DNA of 64,000 bases, from NCBI GenBank assembly GCA_947561715.1, contig OX387202.1, positions 19,605,001 through 19,669,000 of the forward strand, given 5' to 3'. Shown here piece by piece: positions 1 to 54,361 of the stretch. Position numbers and translations under genes: made by a program. Numbering within the stretch: the stretch's first letter is position 1; every line of letters starts with the position of its first letter. The notes below the pieces were generated by a model. It made no database searches. It saw nothing but the letters and a program-made list of their open reading frames with translations, and was not told the DNA's origin. This DNA is from Ascidia mentula (taxonomy: Eukaryota; Chordata; Ascidiacea; Phlebobranchia; Ascidiidae).

Positions 1-485
1 CCGGTTGGAATCGAAGATAACTTTGACTCATTGATGTTTATCTAAAAGTCGACGAAGAGTATTGAAGGAAATATTGAAGGGAAGCTAAAGAAAAAGGAAT
101 TATTTTACCTTCGGGGCACGACAAACAACAAATGCGCTGTATTACGTCACAAGGGCTAAATATTTGAGAAGTTCTGGTTTGTCGCTCGATTGTTCGGCTC
201 GTCTGCGTCTGCGGATTAATTTGTTTTGGTGAAAAAAGTTTGCCGATTCTCCCGCGAACCGTTGTGAATATAAGGGATGATGTTTGGGCTGAAAGCAAGA
301 AAGCCGCAAGTATGAAGGTTAGCTTCACACTGGTTGGGAAAGTCTCTGTGCTGCCGAGCTCTTGCAATGAACAACTTCTGCTTGTTTCGACTGAATGGAT
401 GTAAATCTTTTAAGACTGAGGTTTTTGTGTTTCCACAGATTCACTGAGGTTTAAGAAAGTTATTTATTGAAAAGCTTTAAAGAAA
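1..485. other. Upstream flank of the EF-hand gene, no gene seen
   Basis: No exon with convincing coding character was found on either strand. The minus-strand open frame at 38-367 opens with a non-ATG codon and resembles no family I know. The stretch probably holds the promoter and 5' UTR of the EF-hand gene that begins at 486. Confidence 0.4.
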
Positions 486-1664
486 ATGTGGGTTTCCGTT
501 ATTTTGTTTCTTGCTTCTGCAAACGTTATCACAGGTAAATTAAGTATTTAATGTTTTGTACAAAGTTGCAAACTATAAAATGGTGAAATACTGAAAATTA
601 CTTGTTAAAGCCTTATTGATTGATTTTTTGTGACGTGACAATCGTTTGTAGGTTCCTTTAATGACGAAACAATTAAAAGTTTGGAATTCCTGCACAGTCC
701 CCGGTTTACTTTTATGGATATGAACAGCGACGGCATCCTTACGTCGGATGAGATATCGGTTAAATATACGTCGTACATGAAAAACCGTAAGTGAAAATTT
801 TTGAATCAAGTTTGTTACGTGATTGAGGTTCTGTGGTTAAAACAGGTGGGAGATTCTGTGGCTTGGATTTTGTTTGTGACGTCAACAAAGACGGGAAAGT
901 GACGAGAACCGAGAACACAATGTGCATTGTTCAATTCTTCAACCAAACCATATTTCCGGTATTAACCATTGTTTGTTTATTTATTATATGTAGTTTTGCA
1001 CTTTGCGATTTGAGCAACTTAATCGCAGCCAAGTGCCAAAGACACGAATGACGGCAAGAATCTGTTTCATGACGTCACAGTACGCATGTTCCACGTGATC
1101 GGCAGCGAAATGTTGATTGCTATTTTTTTCGCGGGAAAATTCCGCACGAGAGAAAAAAACATTTCAGTTTAAAAGAGAAGTCGACATTTTGGAAAACAAA
1201 TTTAACAAAGTTACTTTATTTCCGGTTGACACACACACAAATAAAAGGGGATTCTGGAATGCTTCCGCATAACTCTGTCTCGTATTGTGCAAAACAAACG
1301 TTTATTCCACAAGAAGATTAACAAGTTTTAATTAAATTCTTCAACCGAAATGAAATGTAAACAATGACATTCTAGAAACGACGTATTATGACGACATAGA
1401 AAACGCAGTTAGTTCAATATAGAATATGTTCCACAGATGCTCGACACGGACAGTAACGGTGTGATCAGTGGAGCGGAACAGACAAACATTGTGACGTTAA
1501 CACAGGAATATTTCTACCATCTCACTGCAAAAGAGATCGGATGGGTTGTCCAGTACTGTGACGTCAACATGAATGGCGAAATGGATCTTTCCGAAATGTT
1601 GCATGTTGATGGTGAACTCACGAATATCGACCTTATGAGACTTAAGTTTGCGAGTGCTCCGTAA
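486..1664 (+). CDS. Secreted four-EF-hand calcium-binding protein
   Basis: Exons 486-534, 652-786, 846-958 and 1437-1664 join in phase and give 174 residues. The protein starts with a hydrophobic signal peptide (MWVSVILFLASANVITG), so it should enter the secretory pathway. Four EF-hand loops follow in order: DMNSDGILTSDE, DVNKDGKVTRTE, DTDSNGVISGAE and DVNMNGEMDLSE. The third and fourth keep the Asp/Asn and final Glu ligands, so Ca2+ binding is likely. No other domain is present; an extracellular or luminal Ca2+ sensor or buffer is the safest role. The exon 3 donor at 959 reads CCG|GTATTA; if that intron is kept, the frame instead runs to a stop at 1049-1051 and adds a hydrophobic tail. I do not recognise an exact orthologue. 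Confidence 0.8.
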
Positions 1665-1729
1665 CGCCACCAAGTGGATGACTTACTGTATTTATGTTGC
1701 GAATGCGCCACGTAGTGGCAGCTGTGTTA

Positions 1730-1735
1730 AATAAA
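1730..1735 (+). terminator. Polyadenylation signal of the EF-hand gene
   Basis: AATAAA lies 66 bp after the stop codon of the EF-hand gene, on its strand, at a normal distance for a short 3' UTR. Confidence 0.6.
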
Positions 1736-3523
1736 GCAGGCTGTTTTGTCAAACATAACGTCATTACTAACAGCTTAATAAATATGATTTCTATTATGTA
1801 GCCCACAGTGTGCCTTCATCAGAACAAGAAAGACAGCAATTTTATGAAATCCCAATAATGTTTTTTGAAACCCAGTCGTAGTTTTTAGATTTTTGTTGAT
1901 TGAGGGTCAGCAGCTCTCATGTTATCATGGTTCCAGCGCTTTAACACTATATAATATGTTTTATGGGGAAAAGGCGGAAAGCAGTCAGCAGGATTACCAA
2001 TCCACACAAACTCAGGGAATGCCTCTTGATCGATATATGGATCGGTTTGCTTTATTAAGTTTCCTCGAGTAAACCTTACCCTGTGCAGTGCTGCAAGATT
2101 GCAATATTGAAAAAATTAGTTTGTGAATTTACTAAAAGTCTAAACCACGCAGGTACAGAAAGTTGTAAAATCCGGTTGCATTTGAAGGTCAAATATGATT
2201 TGATTTTTTTGGTAAAATTAAGGCTAGCCAGACTCTAAACGCTGAACGCAACTCACGCCAGGCATTTGAAATTATAAAATTCAACGTTTATCAATATTTC
2301 ATTTCATGTTAGCCGCATTACCCACAATTCCTATTTTAATATGGAATAAGTTGCCGTGTGATGCATTCATTTCCTTGTTTAAATGAGACACAAATGTTTC
2401 TGTGTTCGAGAAACGATGTATAGGAAATATCGGATTGTATCGAATCCAACTTTTCAACAAGTTGTGACGTCAGCGGGTGCGTTAGTTGAGTCGAATAGGG
2501 AACCCAGTTTAAGTCAGACTTTATCAAACCCAAAAGCAAGTGTAACAGGTGTTGACTCTGGTTGACCTTTCACTGTGTGGATGCAAAAAACACATAGCTA
2601 TTGAACTGATGGGAACGCATTTAAAACGTTATTAATCTGCAGCAATCTTTCCCGCCAAATGTTGGTTTCTTTTAATGCTAGAACAAGAGAAGAAGTTTGC
2701 ATCGCGCGCGTTGCAGTGGATTATATTCTCCCAATACCCTGTGATTGATTTTCTGTGTTGGGCGGTTAGGTTATCTATGGCGCGAGCCGCGTTTATTTAA
2801 ACAAGAATTTAGTGAATGATTCACGAATGTCACAAACGTTCTACGACTGCGAAACGCGAGAATCTTGACATCGTCAGGCAATCGTGGTTTATTGCGTCAC
2901 TATCAAGGACTTGGTAAATCGAACGCTTGAATTGTTTCTACAGAGACGCCCATTGATGAGCTTGCTGTCGTCAACTTTCGAGTTTCGCGTCGCTTCAGTG
3001 GAAGACAATTCCAATTCACACGTAACAAAGCATAGCTACACGGTTGGGCGCGCAAAATATTGTATAGTTACGAGCAAGTTCCAGAACTTGAACTCTCTCA
3101 ATGTTAACTCCGCGATAAAGAGGTTTGTGAGGTCACAGTAAGTAGCCGAAGGGCGGCATTGTCGTGTTTGTATCCAAGAAAGTAGACGGAAAGTGATGAT
3201 CAAAAGTAGGAAATCGTAAACCAACTTCAGTTTTGCAATCCAGAAATCCTCACACGGGAATATGTATTTACCAGGAACCAAACAACAGCAGTATAATGGA
3301 TCCAGTACAAAAAACAGCACAATGTTTGTTCAAGTCAGGTTACCAGCAGTTAAGGGCTGCCTTGCCAGTCTGACAGCCTAAACACTAGGGTTATAACGAA
3401 GGCTTAACATACCGCTTGATTAAACAATTCATTTCTTTCCAGGACGCGTTACTACACAATAGATACTGTGACGTAAAAATACCACGCAGTACTATGTGAC
3501 GTACACAAATGACGTCATATATT
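1736..3523. other. Intergenic region and IP6K promoter
   Basis: No recognisable exon. The region holds GC-richer patches near 2700-2850 and several TGACGTCA or TGACGTAA motifs. The plus-strand open frame at 2884-3141 opens with a non-ATG codon and has no family resemblance. A 5' UTR exon of the kinase gene could lie here. Confidence 0.4.
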
Positions 3524-27389: not shown

Positions 27390-30300
27390 TTACCCGCCGT
27401 TTTCGTTAGAAAAATCGCTTTCCGCGTTTTCGCTCAACCGACAAGCAACTGCCGTCACTAGGGCAGCGCCTTTGCCACTTCCGTCCGACGACTGACGGAA
27501 AGTGACGTCACATCCGGGACAGAGTTCGGAAACTTTATCGCTGAGCAGGAACCGGAATCTGGGAAGTAAACGATAAAAGTGTTTTAATTAATTTGTGTAT
27601 AAGCTGCAGACAGATGGCCACTGTTTCGACCTAAAAGGTCTCATCAGTGCAGCTGGTGTGACAATAAAGCGACTTTGCTGACCAAACGGCCTGTTTTAAT
27701 TAAGTTTTGGTTAAATTTGTGTTTCCCAACTAACAGTACACGCGGAGTCGTTCACCGGACCAAATATTTTTTTTACCTTAAATAGATTTCGTTTGGTGCT
27801 CAGTGCATACTTTTGCCTTGTTACATTTTTTTTAATTATTTTTTTTCAACATAATTTAGTTTGGATTTCTCCAGGATTAAAGTAGTTGAAATTACTGTGC
27901 AAGTGCAAAAGGTTGAGGATCATGAAAGTTAAAACACAAATTTGCCCAAACATATTGGCGAACTTCAACCAGCTTTAAAGTAATTTAGGTTGAAAATTGT
28001 TTCAATGAAAGCGAATCGGTAAAGCATAAATCAGGTCTTACAGTTAATAAACAGCGAAATACAAAGAAGCATTCATCCAGCAGGCAGCCCACAGGTTGTA
28101 AAACATTAAGCGACCGTCAGCAGCTGTTTGCTCAAGCGATCGCATGCCAGCAGACAAACCCACAGTCACCGGGGTTTAACATACCTTGGGTGTTTCTTGT
28201 AAACCGTCCCGTCAACTCCTACTGTAATACGAAACCTCGGCGTTGCAGCGTCTCCACACGCCGCATTTCGGAACTCAATTTCCCGCGACCGGAGGACAAG
28301 AGCCGCGACCCCCGCCGCACAAAGGTTAGCCGCCCTTGTGCTGACGTTTACGCAAGCTTCGCGTACAATTGTCCTCTCCTGGAGCGTCGTATCTAAGTAA
28401 CCAAGACTTTCGAGGATTTGCGAGCAAGCTTTGAGTTGGTTAGAGCGATCCCTGCAAATCATGTTTAAATTTACAATCACTGTACAGAGTATTTCTGAAT
28501 ATTAAATACAGAGAGTTTTGACTGGAAACCATGTCTAGAAATAATTGCAATCTGACAGGCTAATGCTTCATTGCATTTAAATGCAGTGTGGTTAATATTA
28601 TTTAAGCAGTTTGCCAGGAAAGCATCAATTTTTGTACTTTGAATGACTTCCCTTATAGATTGGACCAGCTGTTATCCAAACATTAAGATAACAGACAATC
28701 AATGTGTTGTGAAACATTGGAATAACTAAAAAATAAAGTCTTTTGTGTTTAAACATAGGCAGAGTAAGCTTGCCATCTGTCTGTTCATAATTAGCCACCA
28801 CAAAATCCTGCATCAAACTTTAAACAACTTTCCCTCAGGCGTTGCTGCACCATCCTAATCCTTAATCCACTGCAGTGGAGTAAGTGGTTACACGCTGTCG
28901 ATTCTTATGTAACACGAATCTTAATGAGCAAAGTTATTTTTAAAAGCATAACGGTCATTTGTAAATGAGGCTTCGTTGGTAGACGACGCTGAGAATACAT
29001 CAGGTTGTTGTGTAAAACTTGGAAGCCAATAAACTTATGTCTACAATGTAGGGACAACATATTATAACATTCAACTTTAAGATAGAAACAAAGCGTTACA
29101 TGGATTAGTTAAACATTAAACTTCAATATGGGCATCATCATCGTGCACTCCTCTGACACCACATCAATCATTGAGCATTAACATACTGTGTTGGAGGTAC
29201 AATAAGCACTGGATTTTTAGTGAATAATACTACTTGAAACTAATTTACTTACACTTCGATTTGTGTGACAAAAGCTGTGAGGAATTTCCCTTTTGTGTTA
29301 AGTTCAGTGGTAATTCGACCTTCAAACAACCCAGCTTTCTTGACAAGGTTAAGCAATAGAAATCTTACAACTTCACCCATGTACATTCCGCTGATCATTT
29401 TCTCAAATCTGTTAAAAACATATATTAGTTGACATTTTTTGCACAGTTTAAACATGTAGATTTTAAAAAGTCATTAAATGTTGGTGTCCTTATGCGAGAC
29501 AAAAAATAATTGGTTTGATCCATGAGTGCCAACATAATGTAAATGCTTGCAAAGAAATTACAGCAGCAAAAAAACAATGGGAAGTTAATTCTACAACAAA
29601 TTTTACAGGGGTTGTAATAAATCTTTTTGATGCCATGGAAACCTTGGAAGCAAATATTGTGGAACTCCAATTAAAAAATTGATACATTGAAACAAAACAT
29701 GTACTTTCCACAAACAAAGATCTGTGATCAAAACACATTGACGATCAGATGCTATTAATAAAAGAATCTGAATATAATCAAACATTCTTCCTGGTGAAGG
29801 AATTTAATATAAGTACGTACATCATGCAGCCAGGATTAATGGATTCTGTGTCAACTTGGTAATCGCAATCGGTCCGAATCGAATCCAGACTCCCGTTTTC
29901 CCCGAAACCTCCCCACTCAGTGTTGATGCACATCCTTTCCGATCCACTCAACTTCTGGCCTTCGGTTAAAGTTTTTATGTCCGTCTCACTCTCCATGTAA
30001 CAAGCATTACTTCCGGTACCTGTGGAATGGAAACGTTAAAATACTTTTGTGTGATTAAGAGAATATTGAAAACACACAAAGGTAAGTTAAGAAGTTCGTG
30101 TCAGGTTATGAACAACATCCACTAACAATGACAAAGGGGCTCAGGACCAAGAAAGAAATATGACAAAAACAATTCAACTTTGAAACAATACAAGAAACTG
30201 TTTTCTTTTAATAAACATGGAGTCAATAACCATCACTATTATAATCACATGATAAACTAAAGTTTCTGAAATTAGGGAATATGACCAGACAGGCAGCATA

Positions 30301-31999
30301 CCTACTATCATTCCTATAGTACATTGTTGATCGCTGTAAGCACAAGTCATCATGGTGCCCACAGTATCATTGATTACAGCTTTAACTTTAACATCGTAGG
30401 TCAAATGGCTTTTTTGCTTTTGTCGTTCGAGTGCATCATGTAACAACCCTGCAAGGTCTTCACCGGCAACACCAGTTGCATTAAAACCCTTCGTCCATCG
30501 CAGAAGCATACTCTGTGGAATTAGTCATACAGGTATTGTCCATTGAGAATCTAAAATCACTCAACCAATCATAATTCATTTTCAGATGAAAAAATTGATT
30601 CAGAAACAAAACCATATTCTTTACAACAGGTTTAACTTTCAACAATAAATAAACTGACCAATTAGCCAGAAAGGCAACAGCAGCAAAAAGACAAAACCAA
30701 CCTTATCTAAACCATTTTGAACACAAGGAAAGGAAAAAGTGAAACCCAGTGGTAAAGTTGAATCAGAAAGATTGTGACGTGTCAAAAAGTCCTCAATACA
30801 TACGGCAATGTGATCAAACAGCTGGAAAAATATTTCAAAAATTTTGTGAAAAAAATATTGAATTTACTTAAAAAAAATTAGCATGCCAGCATTTGCAAGA
30901 TTTTATGCCAAACACATTTTTACATTTGCAAGATTTTATGCCAAACACATTTTTACGTAACTCATAAATTTACAACAGACTTCTTGCAGTGGGCAAGCAT
31001 TAACTCGCTGCTTATTACATTTGATTAGTTATCCCATAGAATTAACCTTATCTCCAGTAGTTGTCATGGCCTCAGGTGGGACCATATACACTTGGCTGTC
31101 TACTTCAACCCTTTCTTGTGATACTTTGGGAAGTTTTACTCGTAAAACTCGAAAGTTTGTCCCACCGAGATCAAGCGCCAGAAAATCACCACATTCTACA
31201 ACAATAAAAGAATGTCAAACATTACAAAATCAAAGCACATTAATTTTTTTGTAGAACTGTAATAGGTAAATATTGTGTTGCTGCCAGACAAAGTGTATTT
31301 CAAAATATTGGTTCTTCTGGCATTTAAACGTGCACTTTCATTCACTGCTGACACAGCTTGTTAATTCATGTGAATAATTAAGAAACATCGGTGATGACAA
31401 CATATGTTTAATTGTGCCAGAAGAACGGATAAATTGAAACAAAAATTTATACAATAGTTCAGTTGGATATAAAAAGATAATGTGTGGATATCATTATTAC
31501 AGGTTTGCACAAGAAATAAACAAACCGTCAGACAATTATGTCAAAATTTACCTTTTCCATTGGGAATTCCACGGACAAATGAAGGCAACATTTTTAACGA
31601 TGATTTTTTTCCTTTAAGTCCATTTAGGATATTTTTGATCATTTCATCTCGAATTTTTTGAAGTTGTTCGTTGCTCAATTTATACGATGACAAAACTTCA
31701 TCGATCTACACAAAAACAACTTCAGACTTTACGATTGTAACAACAATTTGTGCATTGTTGGTTTAAACATCACTTTATACATAGTATCAGCCATCTGACA
31801 GGGTCAAAGGTCAACTGCAAGTCCTTGGTTATGGGGTTACGACAAAATTTGTCTTATTGTATATTAAAGACCAAGAATCATGCAACATAATATTACTATT
31901 GAAAAATTTAAAATAAATGCAAATAAAGCATACATTCTATTTAACAAGTTATATAACCTGACTCTATACCTGGTTTCTAATTGCTTCCACATTCGCCAT
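27390..31999 (-). CDS. HK: Hexokinase (single catalytic unit)
   Basis: Nine minus-strand exons (31999-31970, 31705-31552, 31195-31047, 30821-30702, 30512-30302, 30019-29821, 29408-29253, 28451-28185, 27558-27390) join in phase to 484 residues, the size of a 50-kDa hexokinase or glucokinase. It phosphorylates glucose with ATP, the first step of glycolysis. Marks seen: [16 protein letters not shown] (phosphate loop), [26 protein letters not shown] with the catalytic Asp, [52 protein letters not shown] and [13 protein letters not shown] in the last exon. The last exon is masked by an antisense open frame and is easy to miss. The short N-terminus lacks the hydrophobic porin-binding start of mammalian HK1/2. 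The final intron (27559-28184) carries a sense-orientation hammerhead ribozyme. Confidence 0.93.
27592..27691 (-). mobile_element. 100-bp SINE-like insertion carrying a hammerhead ribozyme
   Basis: The segment is bounded by perfect 12-bp direct repeats TGTTTTAATTAA at 27580-27591 and 27692-27703, as expected of a retrotransposed insertion. Read on the minus strand it has about 37 bp of unknown sequence and then the ribozyme. It lies in the last hexokinase intron. Partial decayed relatives of the ribozyme part occur at 53721-53780 and 36791-36845. No coding capacity. Confidence 0.7.
27602..27654 (-). ncRNA. Type I hammerhead self-cleaving ribozyme
   Basis: Read 5' to 3' on the minus strand: stem I strand AGCTGCA, core CTGATGA, stem II GACC-TTTTA-GGTC, core GAA, stem III ACAG-TGGCCAT-CTGT, cleavage base C, then TGCAGCT, which pairs perfectly (7 bp) with the first strand. 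Every invariant core base is present, including the G10.1-C11.1 and A15.1-U16.1 pairs. Cleavage is predicted between 27609 and 27608. It is transcribed in the sense of the hexokinase pre-mRNA, about 43 nt before the last 3' splice site. Confidence 0.9.
30891..30956. repeat. Perfect 33-bp tandem duplication
   Basis: Two exact head-to-tail copies, 30891-30923 and 30924-30956, beginning atttgcaagattttatgcc. They lie in the hexokinase intron between the exons ending at 31047 and starting at 30821. A recent local duplication. Confidence 0.95.
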
Positions 32000-34900: not shown

Positions 34901-37900
34901 GGCAATGAGGGGATTGACCCAGTTATTAAATTCCTCTACAACTTCCGGAAGACATTCTGCAATATTTGGCAAGGTCACGCCAGCAAGTACTTCACCGCAA
35001 GGTCATCTGTGTTAAATGCAACTCCCAACTTTTGGCGGAGTTGTTGTGTGCGCAATGAGGCGTGACGGTGGCAAAGTGTCGTAGTTTGAACAACGGAGAA
35101 ACCTCTCGAAGTCCAACAATCTGGTTCAACAAACCATAACTTCTCCCATAGCGTTGGCACTCCCATAGCGAACTTAAAACAGTCGCATTTAATCATATAC
35201 AGATAGAGATGTGTAAGATGTGGTGTTAATTTCCCCATAAATGCCGGAACCTTTGAGTAGGGGATTTATTTAAAGTAATCTAACAAACCATTAAAGCACC
35301 AAAGTTAAATATCGTAACGCTACTTGGACTTTTGCGTGAAACGAAGTTTAATGAGGTTTCTTCAACAAGCCTTCGTACTTGATGTATTTTCTTGGGCGCT
35401 CCTATAGGATTAAGTGCGGTTACATCACCTGCACGAGGAACCTGCGCTTGGAAAAACTTGGCCGAAAAGTCCACTGTAAAGACATCTTGAAGAGGTGGCG
35501 GCCGTGCAAAGTCACTAACTCTTATATAAATCTTCCGTATTAAGAAGCACGCATGTTTTGCATTCGCTCCGCATCGCCCGTGGGGCTCGAACGATGCGCA
35601 AAAGCTCAACGAGTAATGAAGTGAAAAAAGGAGGATTTTTGCTAGGCGAATCGTACCGTGCCGCTGTGCACGTCCCAGTTGTTGACTTCAACCTTCGCTT
35701 CCTCAGCATCGGCCGCGGCAACAAAGCTCCATCCGTCAGTTGTTTACCAGTAGATCGGCATCACCGCTCGTTTCACACCGGCAAAATATACGGGCGGTTA
35801 TTCCAAAACAACAAAATGATTGGTAAAAATCCACAGCCCGCATTTAAAGTGTGGCCCGTGGTCACGTTCGCAAGTCGGTTTGAAGCAAACTTGTTGACTG
35901 CGGTTTAATGCGAAGAGAACTTTCCACGTTGCAAAACAGGCGGCTTCAACTTAATGCAAAGACGTCACTTATTAAGCAATTGTTTCATTCTCACTTCTTG
36001 GTTCCGACAAGCTTCCCGATCTTCAGCGTATGTTGCTTGGCAACGGCCCGATACATAAATTCTCTCTAAACAACTTAATTAAGTTGGAAGGTGCTGTTGT
36101 TTTCCAGGCAATTAGCTTGACACAGTCGTTTCTTATTACGAAAAGTATAGCCAACCTTTTCCACCGATAAACCGACGGCTCGGCAACGGAAACGCGTTGA
36201 AAATATTTTGTCAATAGTTGGGCAACTTCGTGACTTAGCCGTGGTAAATAGTTTAAATTCTGTAAATTTTATCAGGACCCGTAACGCGCTCTCATCACAA
36301 TCACATACATCGGTAAACATGTTGAACATTTCAGAATCTAAATCTCAGCAACAAGCGGAATCACGTGACCACGCCTGTTCGCCTGCGAACTCGCGCAGGT
36401 TCGCGCGTTACGTCATAATGCTGTTGTGTTCGTTGTGACGCTCGAGTCGAGAGCTCATTCCAGTAAAACAGAACGCGGTTCTTTTGTTCAAATCTTCTGG
36501 AGCACAGGGAAAAGTGGAATAATACGAAGGCTTATAACAACCTTAATCATCGCGCGTTGATCAACAGCTGGGGTCGGGCGATCAACAAAACTTTTATCCA
36601 CGTGAAGTTTTGTTAAGGATATCGCTCCTATTTCTGCGATATATTCACCACATTCTGTAACACAACCCAACATGGTTTCCAAACCTTTTTACCATTCATT
36701 GAGCTGCACACAGAGTCACTTTGAACATATCTCCATTGCCCACACCTATAAGTCACTAAATTTATCCAAATTTAAATGTTTGTTTTGTAGTGAGCTGCAG
36801 ACAAGGCCACTGCTTCGACGCAATAGTTGTTATCAGTGCAACTTTAGCTGGGTTTACAACGGTCTTGTCAGCTATATACTAGGCAAGACTTCCACTTTGT
36901 GGTGACTAAACAGTTGCCGTTGGCAATTGGGTGTCAAACTGGGTGCAACCCGACGAAAGCAAACTTCTCCGCTTTCTTGCTTGCTGTTAAAGTGCTCATA
37001 GACCACGAGAACTACTTTTCACTGGTTGCATTTATATTTGGAAGAAAGTTCGAGAAACAACTCAAACATCATCGGTATGTTGACACAAAAAAACACAGAA
37101 CAGTACGATGACGTATGCGATACCAGCATCTCATGCCGATCAGCACAGCGCAATACACAAGGAATATACGTACATTGTGCGAAGGTTTTTCACGTATGTC
37201 GTGTTTACAAAAATTTGATGCGCCCGTTCGCTCAAAGCAAGCGGAATGGCAAAAGAGAGAAATTCGCCGCCACCTTAACGAATTCACAACGATTCAAATA
37301 TTTTTCTTCGCACCATCCGTGATGAAAATATTTTGAAGTTTGTGATGAAACCTCTGATGTATTAAATGTTGAAATTCAGCACTTTATTGGTTTGGCCAAA
37401 AACAAATACAGTGCTATCTTTTAAAACCAACGATTTTGTAGTCGACTTAAAGAAGGTGACGTCATTAAACAAAGGACTGTTGACGTTAGCGGTGACGTCA
37501 TAAAAGAAAGTGGCAATCGTGAATTTTCTGGTGACGCAATGGCAGTTGAAGCACGTGACACAACAAGAAGAAAAACTGGAACTTTGCAGGTTTCAACACT
37601 AGAGGGCGGTAACATATACAGCTTATACACCAGGAAATCCCACTTTTTATTGTTGAAATTCTGCCACCACCTTTGGTGGTTTGGCAGAAACGTGAATCTC
37701 CAACCATTCATAACAGCGGAGAAAACGAGAGATTACGGCATCAAACCCCATCAAAGCTAAGCCAAGATTAAAACATTAATTAGTGAAAAATTGTACCAAC
37801 AATCTCCAAATGTAGAAAGAAGCAAATCGCGTTTAAACACAATCGGAAAGTTCTACAGGAGGTTTAGAGCCAAGTATGGCGGGACAACGACGGTAGTCGA

Positions 37901-46900: not shown

Positions 46901-48401
46901 AATCGTTTCTTTCAAAAAATAATCAAGCAATCGTTGAAAAAATTTCACAGTTAATAAGAAACAGATAACCTCCTTTGTCGCACATAGAAAAATGCTACAT
47001 TGGTAAGTGACGTCATGATGTCATGGTTGATTTCAGCATTGCGTCATCAAAAGTTACGTACAGTTGACAAACGACTTGAATTCAAAACAGACCGTGCGCA
47101 CTTTCTTGTTCATGTCTGGAATTTCTTATTCGTGTCCTTGTTTGGATTATAATAACAATCGTGTTATATACAAGGTTCCAACGGGAAGCCATGTGTTGCT
47201 ATGAGGCCAGAAATGCCATACACATCAGCCTTCATACAGGAAAGCATGAGGTTCCGCTCGTTAAACCCCCTCGGTATAATCCACCATACGAACAACACGG
47301 TCGAATTGGATGGCTACGTCATACCTAAAGGAACAACCGTGAGTTGCTGTTACGTCACAATTGCACATTAGATATTTTTATGGCCAATATATTTTTTTTC
47401 GATTGCATAAATCAATAATCTCGATGAAGTTAACGGGGATTTTAGCCATGGAAAGTTGGCGACACAGCAATATGTTAAAACAATGGATGCAGAAACATGC
47501 TATAACACAAAAATGTCACGCGTCATTGCAAAACACACTAAAATACATATTACGTTGCCTTGGACAACCAGAAAGCCATGGCCGTTGCACTTTGGGGAAA
47601 TATTTTTTATTTGAGGCTAGTAATGATAGTGGCTTCAGAATATGTGATTGTTGTACCTGGCTGTGTAAAAATGCTTATGGGCCATACAAAAAAGGTGGTA
47701 TTTAATAGAAAATTAACGCACTCCTTTTCATTTTGTTCAAATCCATTTGTGTTATTTGTTATAGACACTAAGATAAGGCTATGACGTCAGCCAGGTCAGC
47801 TCCTTATAATGATGGAGCTGCACCAACCGCGTCATTCAAACTGATGATGGCATAAGTTATTGCCGAAACGTCTTAAACATGGCAATGTTAATAGCAGTAT
47901 GGGCAAGTCTTTTTATTCTCAAAATTATGAGCAAATTCGTGAGTAGTTTTCCTAATGATGTTATTTTAGCGAAATCCACTTGTCTTGAGTAGGAAAGCTG
48001 AATGATTTTTAAGCCAAGAGAAATAAACGTTTCCATGTTGCTCAATTGTTGTAAATAGGCGACAATTATTTTACAATTCTCAGGTTGTCCTTAATCAATG
48101 GGCGATGCACAATGACCCGGATGTATGGAAAGATCCAGAAACATTCAACCCAGAAAGACATCTTGACCCAGATGGTCGATTCGTGAGCAACGAGCAAGTT
48201 GTTACGTTTTCTACCGGACCGAGAAGTTGTCCAGGAAAGCAACTTGCCACAACTAAGATATTCTTGTTTCTCGTTTCTTTGGTTCAGAAATTCCATTTCG
48301 TTCCCGGTCCTGCGGGCTTACCAGATATTAACAAAGCATCGTCTGGATTCGTTTACACGCCTCTGCCCTTTGAAGTTATTGCTGAAGAACGAGAATATTA
48401 A
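43981..48401 (+). CDS. Cytochrome P450, CYP2-type clan
   Basis: Nine exons (43981-44235, 44829-44974, 45202-45304, 45401-45510, 45718-45839, 46177-46292, 46740-46884, 47175-47338, 48084-48401) close in phase to 492 residues, the normal microsomal P450 length. The N-terminus is a membrane anchor followed by a Pro-rich hinge (PKGMPPGPRGLPFVG). Further marks: WKTQRKF of helix C, RFDYTDP, RDFIDAYL, the I-helix oxygen-binding region FEASADTQTSTL, the K-helix ExxR (ESMRFR), FNPERHLDPDGRF, and the haem loop FSTGPRSCPGKQLA with the axial Cys. It is an ER monooxygenase; the substrate cannot be told. The acceptor at 46177 is the least certain boundary, because an upstream in-frame ATG stretch (46149-46176) lacks an AG acceptor. 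Confidence 0.9.
44406..44609. mobile_element. hAT-like MITE in P450 intron 1
   Basis: Left end CAGTGTTTCCCAACC and right end GGTTGGAAATCACTA pair at 12 of 15 positions. Flanking octamers cagtagtg and cattagtg differ by one base and look like a hAT target duplication. Non-coding, 204 bp. Confidence 0.75.
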
Positions 48402-53523: not shown

Positions 53524-54361
53524 GCTTTTATTTCAAATTTTCGTTTTACTGCAAAAGAACATAGATAATTTGCTTATGATGCTGCCAGGCATAATTTTTA
53601 GTCAATTTTAAGCTCTTCTGGTAAAATTTATTTAATAGACTTTATGACGACCGCAACGTTGCTTACTAGAAGAGGTTAAAATTGACTTAGGTAGCATAGA
53701 TTCTTATGTAACATTAATGTAAGCTGCAAGCAGATTACAACTGTTTCGACCAATAAGGTCTCATTAGTGGATCAGTGCAGATTCTTGTTAAAGATCTTGC
53801 CAACCATATGTCCGCAGCTTACAGTTGTCAAAGATCTTGCCGACCATATGACCAGTTTATTTGTAAAACTTGGACATTACCAGATTAATAAAACACTTAA
53901 ATATACAAACCGTCGTGATTTTGGGGTTGAAACTGCGAGAAATATAAGTTACACTGACGGAGATAAGCAACTTCGTTTAATTGCTGTGTCACAGTAAAGG
54001 GTTAAAGTCCATTAATAATTCCCACGTTTGTCTCGAATTTCCGAGGACTGCACGGTCGGGGTCAAAGGTTGCAACAGAATTTTTTCAAAGTTTATTTCGG
54101 AATGTTGTTTGTGGTAAGCCCACAAAGTGTGTTGGCTTTTTTCGCACCTACATCTAATTACATCAAGTTTCGTCATTTCAACGTTACAGGGTTTTTATTT
54201 CGATTCGTTTTCATGTTTTATTCACAATTTAAAAGTTTCTGCACCAGGGAAAGTCCCCAGTTGACATGGTGAAATAATGCCAAACTCACCAAAATATATG
54301 TTTTGGAATATTTGAAGTGGCGAAAGTTGCAATATAAAAGCTCCATGCTTAATGAGGAGAC
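53524..54361. other. Divergent promoter region, reductase and WDR38
   Basis: This gap separates oppositely transcribed genes and should contain both promoters. It holds the decayed ribozyme copy and a 37-bp-period imperfect duplication of aaagatcttgcc-accatatg at about 53790 and 53829. Confidence 0.5.
53721..53780 (-). repeat. Decayed hammerhead-ribozyme repeat copy
   Basis: Minus strand keeps stem II (GACC-TTATT-GGTC), GAAACAG and TGCAGCTT, but the core is CTAATGA (G5 changed), about 10 extra bases split the first half, and the cleavage triplet is altered. It is in sense orientation, about 200 bp upstream of the reductase ATG at 53523. Expected to be inactive. Confidence 0.7.

Follow-up and report, generated by a model that had tools for sequence, protein, structure and literature searches.

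Does a complete hammerhead ribozyme in the last intron of a hexokinase gene serve that gene, or is it part of a mobile element, and which protein would have moved such an element? These questions were raised by a window of 64,000 nucleotides of Ascidia mentula DNA, the whole stretch analyzed here. We favor, with a probability of about 0.87, the reading that the intronic element is an animal non-LTR retrozyme, present as a young and truncated copy, and that it was moved by the protein of a Penelope-like element (PLE).

The hammerhead motif in the hexokinase gene

The eight recognized exon frames of the hexokinase gene span 27390..31705 on the minus strand, and all eight matched Hexokinase_1 or Hexokinase_2 (Pfam PF00349 / PF03727); the last exon scored 23.7 bits, slightly below the cut-off of 24. 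Its last intron (27559..28184, minus strand, 626 nt) runs from GTATGT to CCCAG, and the final splice is in frame. The original prediction had placed a complete type I hammerhead at 27602..27654 on the minus strand, in sense orientation within this intron and about 43 nt before its 3' end, and sequence, stems, core bases, and position all bore this out. Read from 27654 to 27602, the minus strand consists of AGCTGCA, CTGATGA, GACC-TTTTA-GGTC, GAA, ACAG-TGGCCAT-CTGT, C, and TGCAGCT. Stem I has 7 bp and no internal loop inside this motif, stems II and III have 4 bp each, and every core base is present. The distance from the 3' end of the hammerhead to the last base of the intron, 27559, was 43 nt, and our reading of the sequence agreed with the predicted cut site between 27609 and 27608 on the minus strand.

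The covariance check proposed together with the prediction failed. No type I match was obtained at gathering level, and over the whole 64-kb window 0 Rfam families reached the gathering score; the best match of the motif was to the type III model, which has the wrong permutation (27.2 bits vs 48.5, E 0.0012). The Rfam type I model also gave 0 matches in the own genome. Because it was equally silent in the control genomes (0 of 14), this search gives no proof of absence. The type I search thus came back empty in a genome that holds 486 identical copies of the motif, and routine annotation may therefore miss such families. In another tunicate, 9 type I hammerhead loci are listed in the accessible part of the Didemnum genome paper. 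For the source genome, TATDN1 was 73% identical to Phallusia mammillata, the highest value of any named hit among the 120 matches listed of 6589, in keeping with an ascidian host, probably one near Phallusia.

Folding of the isolated 53-mer was rejected as proof of a ribozyme, since the catalytic pairing was not its most stable fold. The lowest-energy fold was an alternative at −17.4 kcal/mol, compared with −15.1 kcal/mol for the catalytic pairing, or −16.0 kcal/mol when constrained, and the z-score against shuffled sequences was just −1.55. The alternative pairs CACUG with CAGUG and exceeds the catalytic pairing in stability by 1.4–2.3 kcal/mol in a model that does not include tertiary contacts. 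The CACUG/CAGUG pairing is retained in the commonest variants of both retrozyme families described below, and variants with a broken CAGUG also occur among the family copies. In circular RNAs, such a modeled pairing might keep the ribozyme off.

A young retrozyme copy within the intron

A 301-nt query around the motif found 86 places in the own genome, mostly with about 105 nt in common; several of these places lie in tandem arrays elsewhere in the genome, which were built of units of 283–286 nt with a type I hammerhead. In the 195.8-Mb genome, a gapped core pattern gave 1814 matches (900 + 914; reversed control, 0), and the exact 51-nt hammerhead motif gave 486 (247 + 239; control, 0). At least one further retrozyme family is represented by variants in which the loop of stem III is longer. 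Neither the 100 nt of the window insertion nor the unit of approximately 285 nt is long enough for a reverse transcriptase/GIY-YIG frame. The original prediction had pointed to metazoan retroelements and retrozymes, and this was the right lead, as the element belongs to the non-LTR retrozymes of animals. The GC content of one monomer was 47.4%; the limits given in the available portions of PMC7229834 are <50% in the text and <45% in a figure legend.

The window insertion (27592..27691, minus strand, 100 nt) is a 5'-truncated copy with an end of the short class defined below, and matches a genomic monomer at 95.2% identity across 105 nt. It is a single truncated unit: from 27691 to 27592 it comprises unit positions 203–285 followed by 1–17. 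An exact 12-nt direct repeat, TTAATTAAAACA, flanks it on the minus strand as a target-site duplication, with the upstream copy at 27692..27703 and the downstream copy at 27580..27591. The insertion shared 97 of 99 nt with copy L009 and 71 of 71 aligned nt with copy L018. Judged from its sequence, it is young, and the intact core needs no selection because young age alone can explain its intactness. Two older relatives in the window, both on the minus strand, have decayed. One (36783..36964; 72% over 189 columns) has a broken hammerhead core, and the other, a fragment (53720..53769; 84% over 50 nt), carries CTAATGA in place of CTGATGA.

The downstream copy of the duplication includes TTAAT, a branch-point-like motif whose A lies 30 nt ahead of the end of the intron and which may be the branch point. 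As the duplicated target carries this motif, splicing need not have suffered from the insertion. Cleavage at 27609/27608 would fall upstream of the TTAAT site and would part that site from the 5' exon. A role in the gene was weighed in the form of a domesticated ribozyme that would cut the last intron at about the time of its splicing and so adjust the maturation of hexokinase mRNA, as has been proposed for intronic hammerheads of amniotes and for the Cpeb3 ribozyme. The complete core, the sense orientation, and the position 43 nt ahead of the intron end would suit this role, and there is a precedent: according to the accessible text of PMC10919898, CPEB3 expression rises when the intronic Cpeb3 ribozyme is inhibited. 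However, the motif is not isolated but has 486 identical copies in the genome, the insertion is young and flanked by a target-site duplication, and the older copies in the window have decayed. We consider domestication very unlikely. A regulatory role in hexokinase is unsupported, because the motif belongs to a dispersed repeat, the insertion is young and truncated, and older copies decay. Within the hexokinase gene, the retrozyme copy is an ordinary insertion, and its hammerhead would be at most an incidental cleavage site. An intact intronic hammerhead should hence be checked for being a repeat before it is called a gene regulator.

How retrozymes and PLEs of the same genome end

The ends of insertions were analyzed at 100 retrozyme loci (L001–L100). 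These were the 30 places ranked highest by BLAST, the first 30 places of the pattern search (on contig 1), and 40 regions picked from the BLAST and pattern lists, partly for holding arrays or pairs. On account of this choice, the share of head-to-head copies is no estimate for the genome; the pairing of end classes was unaffected by it, as far as can be seen. Overlapping regions at the same place had been merged earlier, and ten loci that were duplicates or members of one shared composite subfamily (L037, L041, L042, L043, L047, L048, L050, L051, L052, and L053) were left out, giving 73 insertions. These comprised 41 head-to-head copies and 32 others, the latter including the mosaic L026. Duplications were scored against mismatched-flank controls in the 83 insertions present before these ten were left out; 60 surpassed the 95% level of the controls, and 54 also the 99% level. 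Clear duplications were found in 49 of the 73 insertions (10–17 nt, median 13), and the target duplications were AT-rich (0.78 vs 0.63 in the flanks).

The 3' junctions of insertions with clear duplications (n = 81) were confined almost entirely to two zones: 44 lay at unit positions 8–19 (short ends) and 36 at 39–51 (long ends), none at 20–38, and 1 elsewhere. The zones, which hold 80 of the 81 junctions, have medians approximately 29 nt apart and are situated just beyond the ribozyme cut. In a predicted fold of the circular RNA, positions 19–24 pair with 47–52 to form a stem-loop, and each end zone sits close to one of its edges. With class limits drawn after the ends had been seen, one end of each class was present in 36 of the 41 head-to-head copies; the five misfits were two long-long copies, one short-short copy, and two with an end outside both zones. 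Random re-pairing of the ends gave a mean of 19.7 mixed pairs and a maximum of 33 in 100,000 trials. At the 3' junctions, exact microhomology averaged 2.1 nt, whereas shuffled flanks gave 0.58 nt and, in 500 shuffles, at most 0.94 nt. The average at 17 5' junctions was 1.1 nt. By eye, among the matches listed for the 51-nt motif, neighboring opposite pairs were minus-then-plus in 9 cases and plus-then-minus in 1. The second retrozyme family had the same geometry at L099, where the repeat is 12 nt long and the ends lie 11 and 38 nt beyond the cuts. A similar copy, L045, has a repeat of just 8 nt.

Could the pairing of ends have been inherited from one MITE-like composite with inverted repeats, of which all head-to-head copies would be descendants? 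A single structure shared across loci does exist: L041, L042, L043, L047, and L048 form an older composite subfamily with one head-to-head structure and a related flanking 14-mer. That subfamily was, however, excluded before the count. The remaining 41 copies differ in their inner junctions, the arms of the 36 counted ones range from 19 to 1680 nt, and the duplications differ between copies, which leaves common descent the least probable of the explanations that we weighed. The short-end arm was the longer one in 15 of the 36 copies, giving no clear asymmetry as to which arm primed first.

Arms reached 5.9 units and ran through the cut site. Units inside one insertion differed at a mean of 0.52 positions (21 comparisons, six insertions), compared with 4.84 between insertions (210 comparisons, range 0–17), and in L097 and L084 the units of opposite arms were identical in all seven comparisons. 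This homogeneity fits a single circular RNA copied by both strands; the transcript of a homogeneous array would give similar unit identity.

End geometry in this genome was compared between two element classes, retrozymes and PLEs. A minimal PLE-type hammerhead pattern had 323 matches genome-wide (reversed control, 0). At the PLE locus L102, a frame of 841 aa without internal stop (229-2754, plus strand) matched RVT_1 at 26.3 bits (cut-off 29.6) and GIY-YIG at 20.9 bits (cut-off 22.6), both below cut-off, and the hammerheads of L102 lie in direct repeats of 360 bp or more. Stop-free copies of this kind may be recent. The frame had 913 protein matches at E up to 0.001, and no close relative was present among the best 120 of them. 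Within 5 kb, at least 14 pairs of PLE hammerheads were minus-then-plus and 0 plus-then-minus, as counted by eye in about 100 of the 323 places. Some of the 14 pairs are copies of each other, and 9 of them were read by eye. One long and one short end were found in 7 of these 9 (L103, L104, L105, L106, L108, L109, and L110); L101 had two long ends, and the ends of L107 were not assignable. Exact direct repeats of 11–14 nt flanked 5 of the 9.

Comparison of the retrozyme with two PLE loci, L101 and L102, found no sequence similarity of start zones. Sequence kinship between the two classes was rejected, the lone match being 17 nt (E 1.7) inside L101 and away from the start zone. The window itself contains a plus-strand stretch at 47841-47875, CTGATGATGGC...GCCGAAACGTC, that resembles a minimal PLE-type hammerhead core with a weak-looking stem I; it is possibly a decayed PLE end. 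Two fragments, 31276-31331 and 53562-53632, match sequence from the ends of the PLE loci L102 and L101 at 77% identity, and the former falls inside the span of the hexokinase gene.

Twin priming by LINE-type enzymes can also make head-to-head copies with duplications of 10–17 nt. If an enzyme of this type had mobilized the retrozyme by ordinary twin priming, without a PLE, the observed copies and duplications would be accounted for. Yet twin priming would scatter the inner primer along the RNA, whereas the outer ends observed here lie in two narrow zones, one of each in 36 of 41 head-to-head copies, and such pairing was also seen in 7 of the 9 PLE pairs read in this genome. Mobilization by a LINE is thus improbable. 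Mobilization by a PLE remains our preferred reading, and the end geometry supplies anatomical evidence, at the level of sequence, for the movement of animal retrozymes by PLE machinery.

A two-site priming model and known systems

We put forward, at roughly even odds, a model in which PLE proteins move animal retrozymes by two-site priming. Retrozyme transcripts would cleave themselves and be ligated into circles, and the ribozyme would serve the RNA processing of the element. A PLE protein, perhaps as a dimer, would cut both strands of AT-rich DNA. Reverse transcription would be primed by each DNA 3' end and begin at either of two fixed RNA sites, so that each nicked strand would be assigned its own start, about 29 nt apart from the other at the edges of the predicted stem-loop. 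Both strands would copy one circular RNA, sometimes circling it more than once, and the two cDNAs would be joined head to head. A truncated copy in a single direction, as in the hexokinase intron, would arise when the product of one strand alone is retained. If so, the presence of two end zones, both represented in each head-to-head copy, would be a signature of the helper that can be searched for in any retrozyme-bearing genome.

PLEs have been proposed as retrozyme helpers on the grounds that both have hammerheads and tandem copies and occur side by side (PMC7229834, PMC7761336, in their accessible parts), and the latter paper describes animal retrozyme repeats as having no conserved motif from which a helper could be deduced. 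Here the link to PLEs is drawn from the anatomy of insertions, in contrast to those earlier proposals from shared features and co-occurrence. Among the open-licence papers that our searches listed, we found no report of the PLE tail signature in retrozymes.

Among known systems, the sense, self-cleaving intronic motif near a downstream exon recalls the amniote intronic hammerheads (cited in PMC7761336) and the Cpeb3 ribozyme (PMC10919898). As described in the available text, those are few and highly conserved, whereas the hexokinase copy is recent and comes from a high-copy repeat. The element itself is close to metazoan non-LTR retrozymes. The portions of PMC7229834 considered here report features that the present family shares: type I hammerheads, tandem units (170–400 nt there), dispersed copies, target duplications of >4 bp that are longer than those of plant retrozymes, no long terminal repeats seen, and PLEs in the same genome. 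Metazoan retrozymes are further characterized by a tertiary contact between loops 1 and 2 and by expression as linear and circular RNA. The present family differs in coming from an ascidian genome and in having head-to-head copies whose 3' ends fall in two zones, with both zones represented in a copy; the main text of that paper contains neither the word "inverted" nor the word "tail".

With hammerhead PLEs, as far as the excerpted texts of PMC3846280 and PMC11167929 extend, the retrozyme shares head-to-head insertion, a hammerhead just ahead of the 3' ends, a tail of about 30 nt at one of two ends, and AT-rich duplications. The most frequent inverted arrangement of PLEs is reported to be head-to-head, and in Adineta an optional 31-bp tail occurs at one of the inverted pLTRs (PMC3846280). 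The Anolis PLE cuts and extends both strands, starting at two internal RNA sites, and the 30–40-bp tail is the stretch between the two start sites; the abstract calls this tail signature unique to PLEs (PMC11167929). Unlike PLEs, the retrozyme has a 285-nt unit without a protein of its own, a full stem III (PLE hammerheads are minimal), and start zones that show no sequence similarity to those of PLEs. In vitro, as the available text of PMC11167929 describes it, the Anolis PLE needed no hammerhead activity, its start site had no homology to the cut DNA, and its start sites were alike on both strands. In contrast, retrozyme 3' junctions have microhomology to the target, and the two arms differ in end class. 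The pairing of ends constrains the PLE mechanism, because two start sites but no strand difference were seen in vitro, and the retrozyme family supplies a sharp, testable rule for that pairing.
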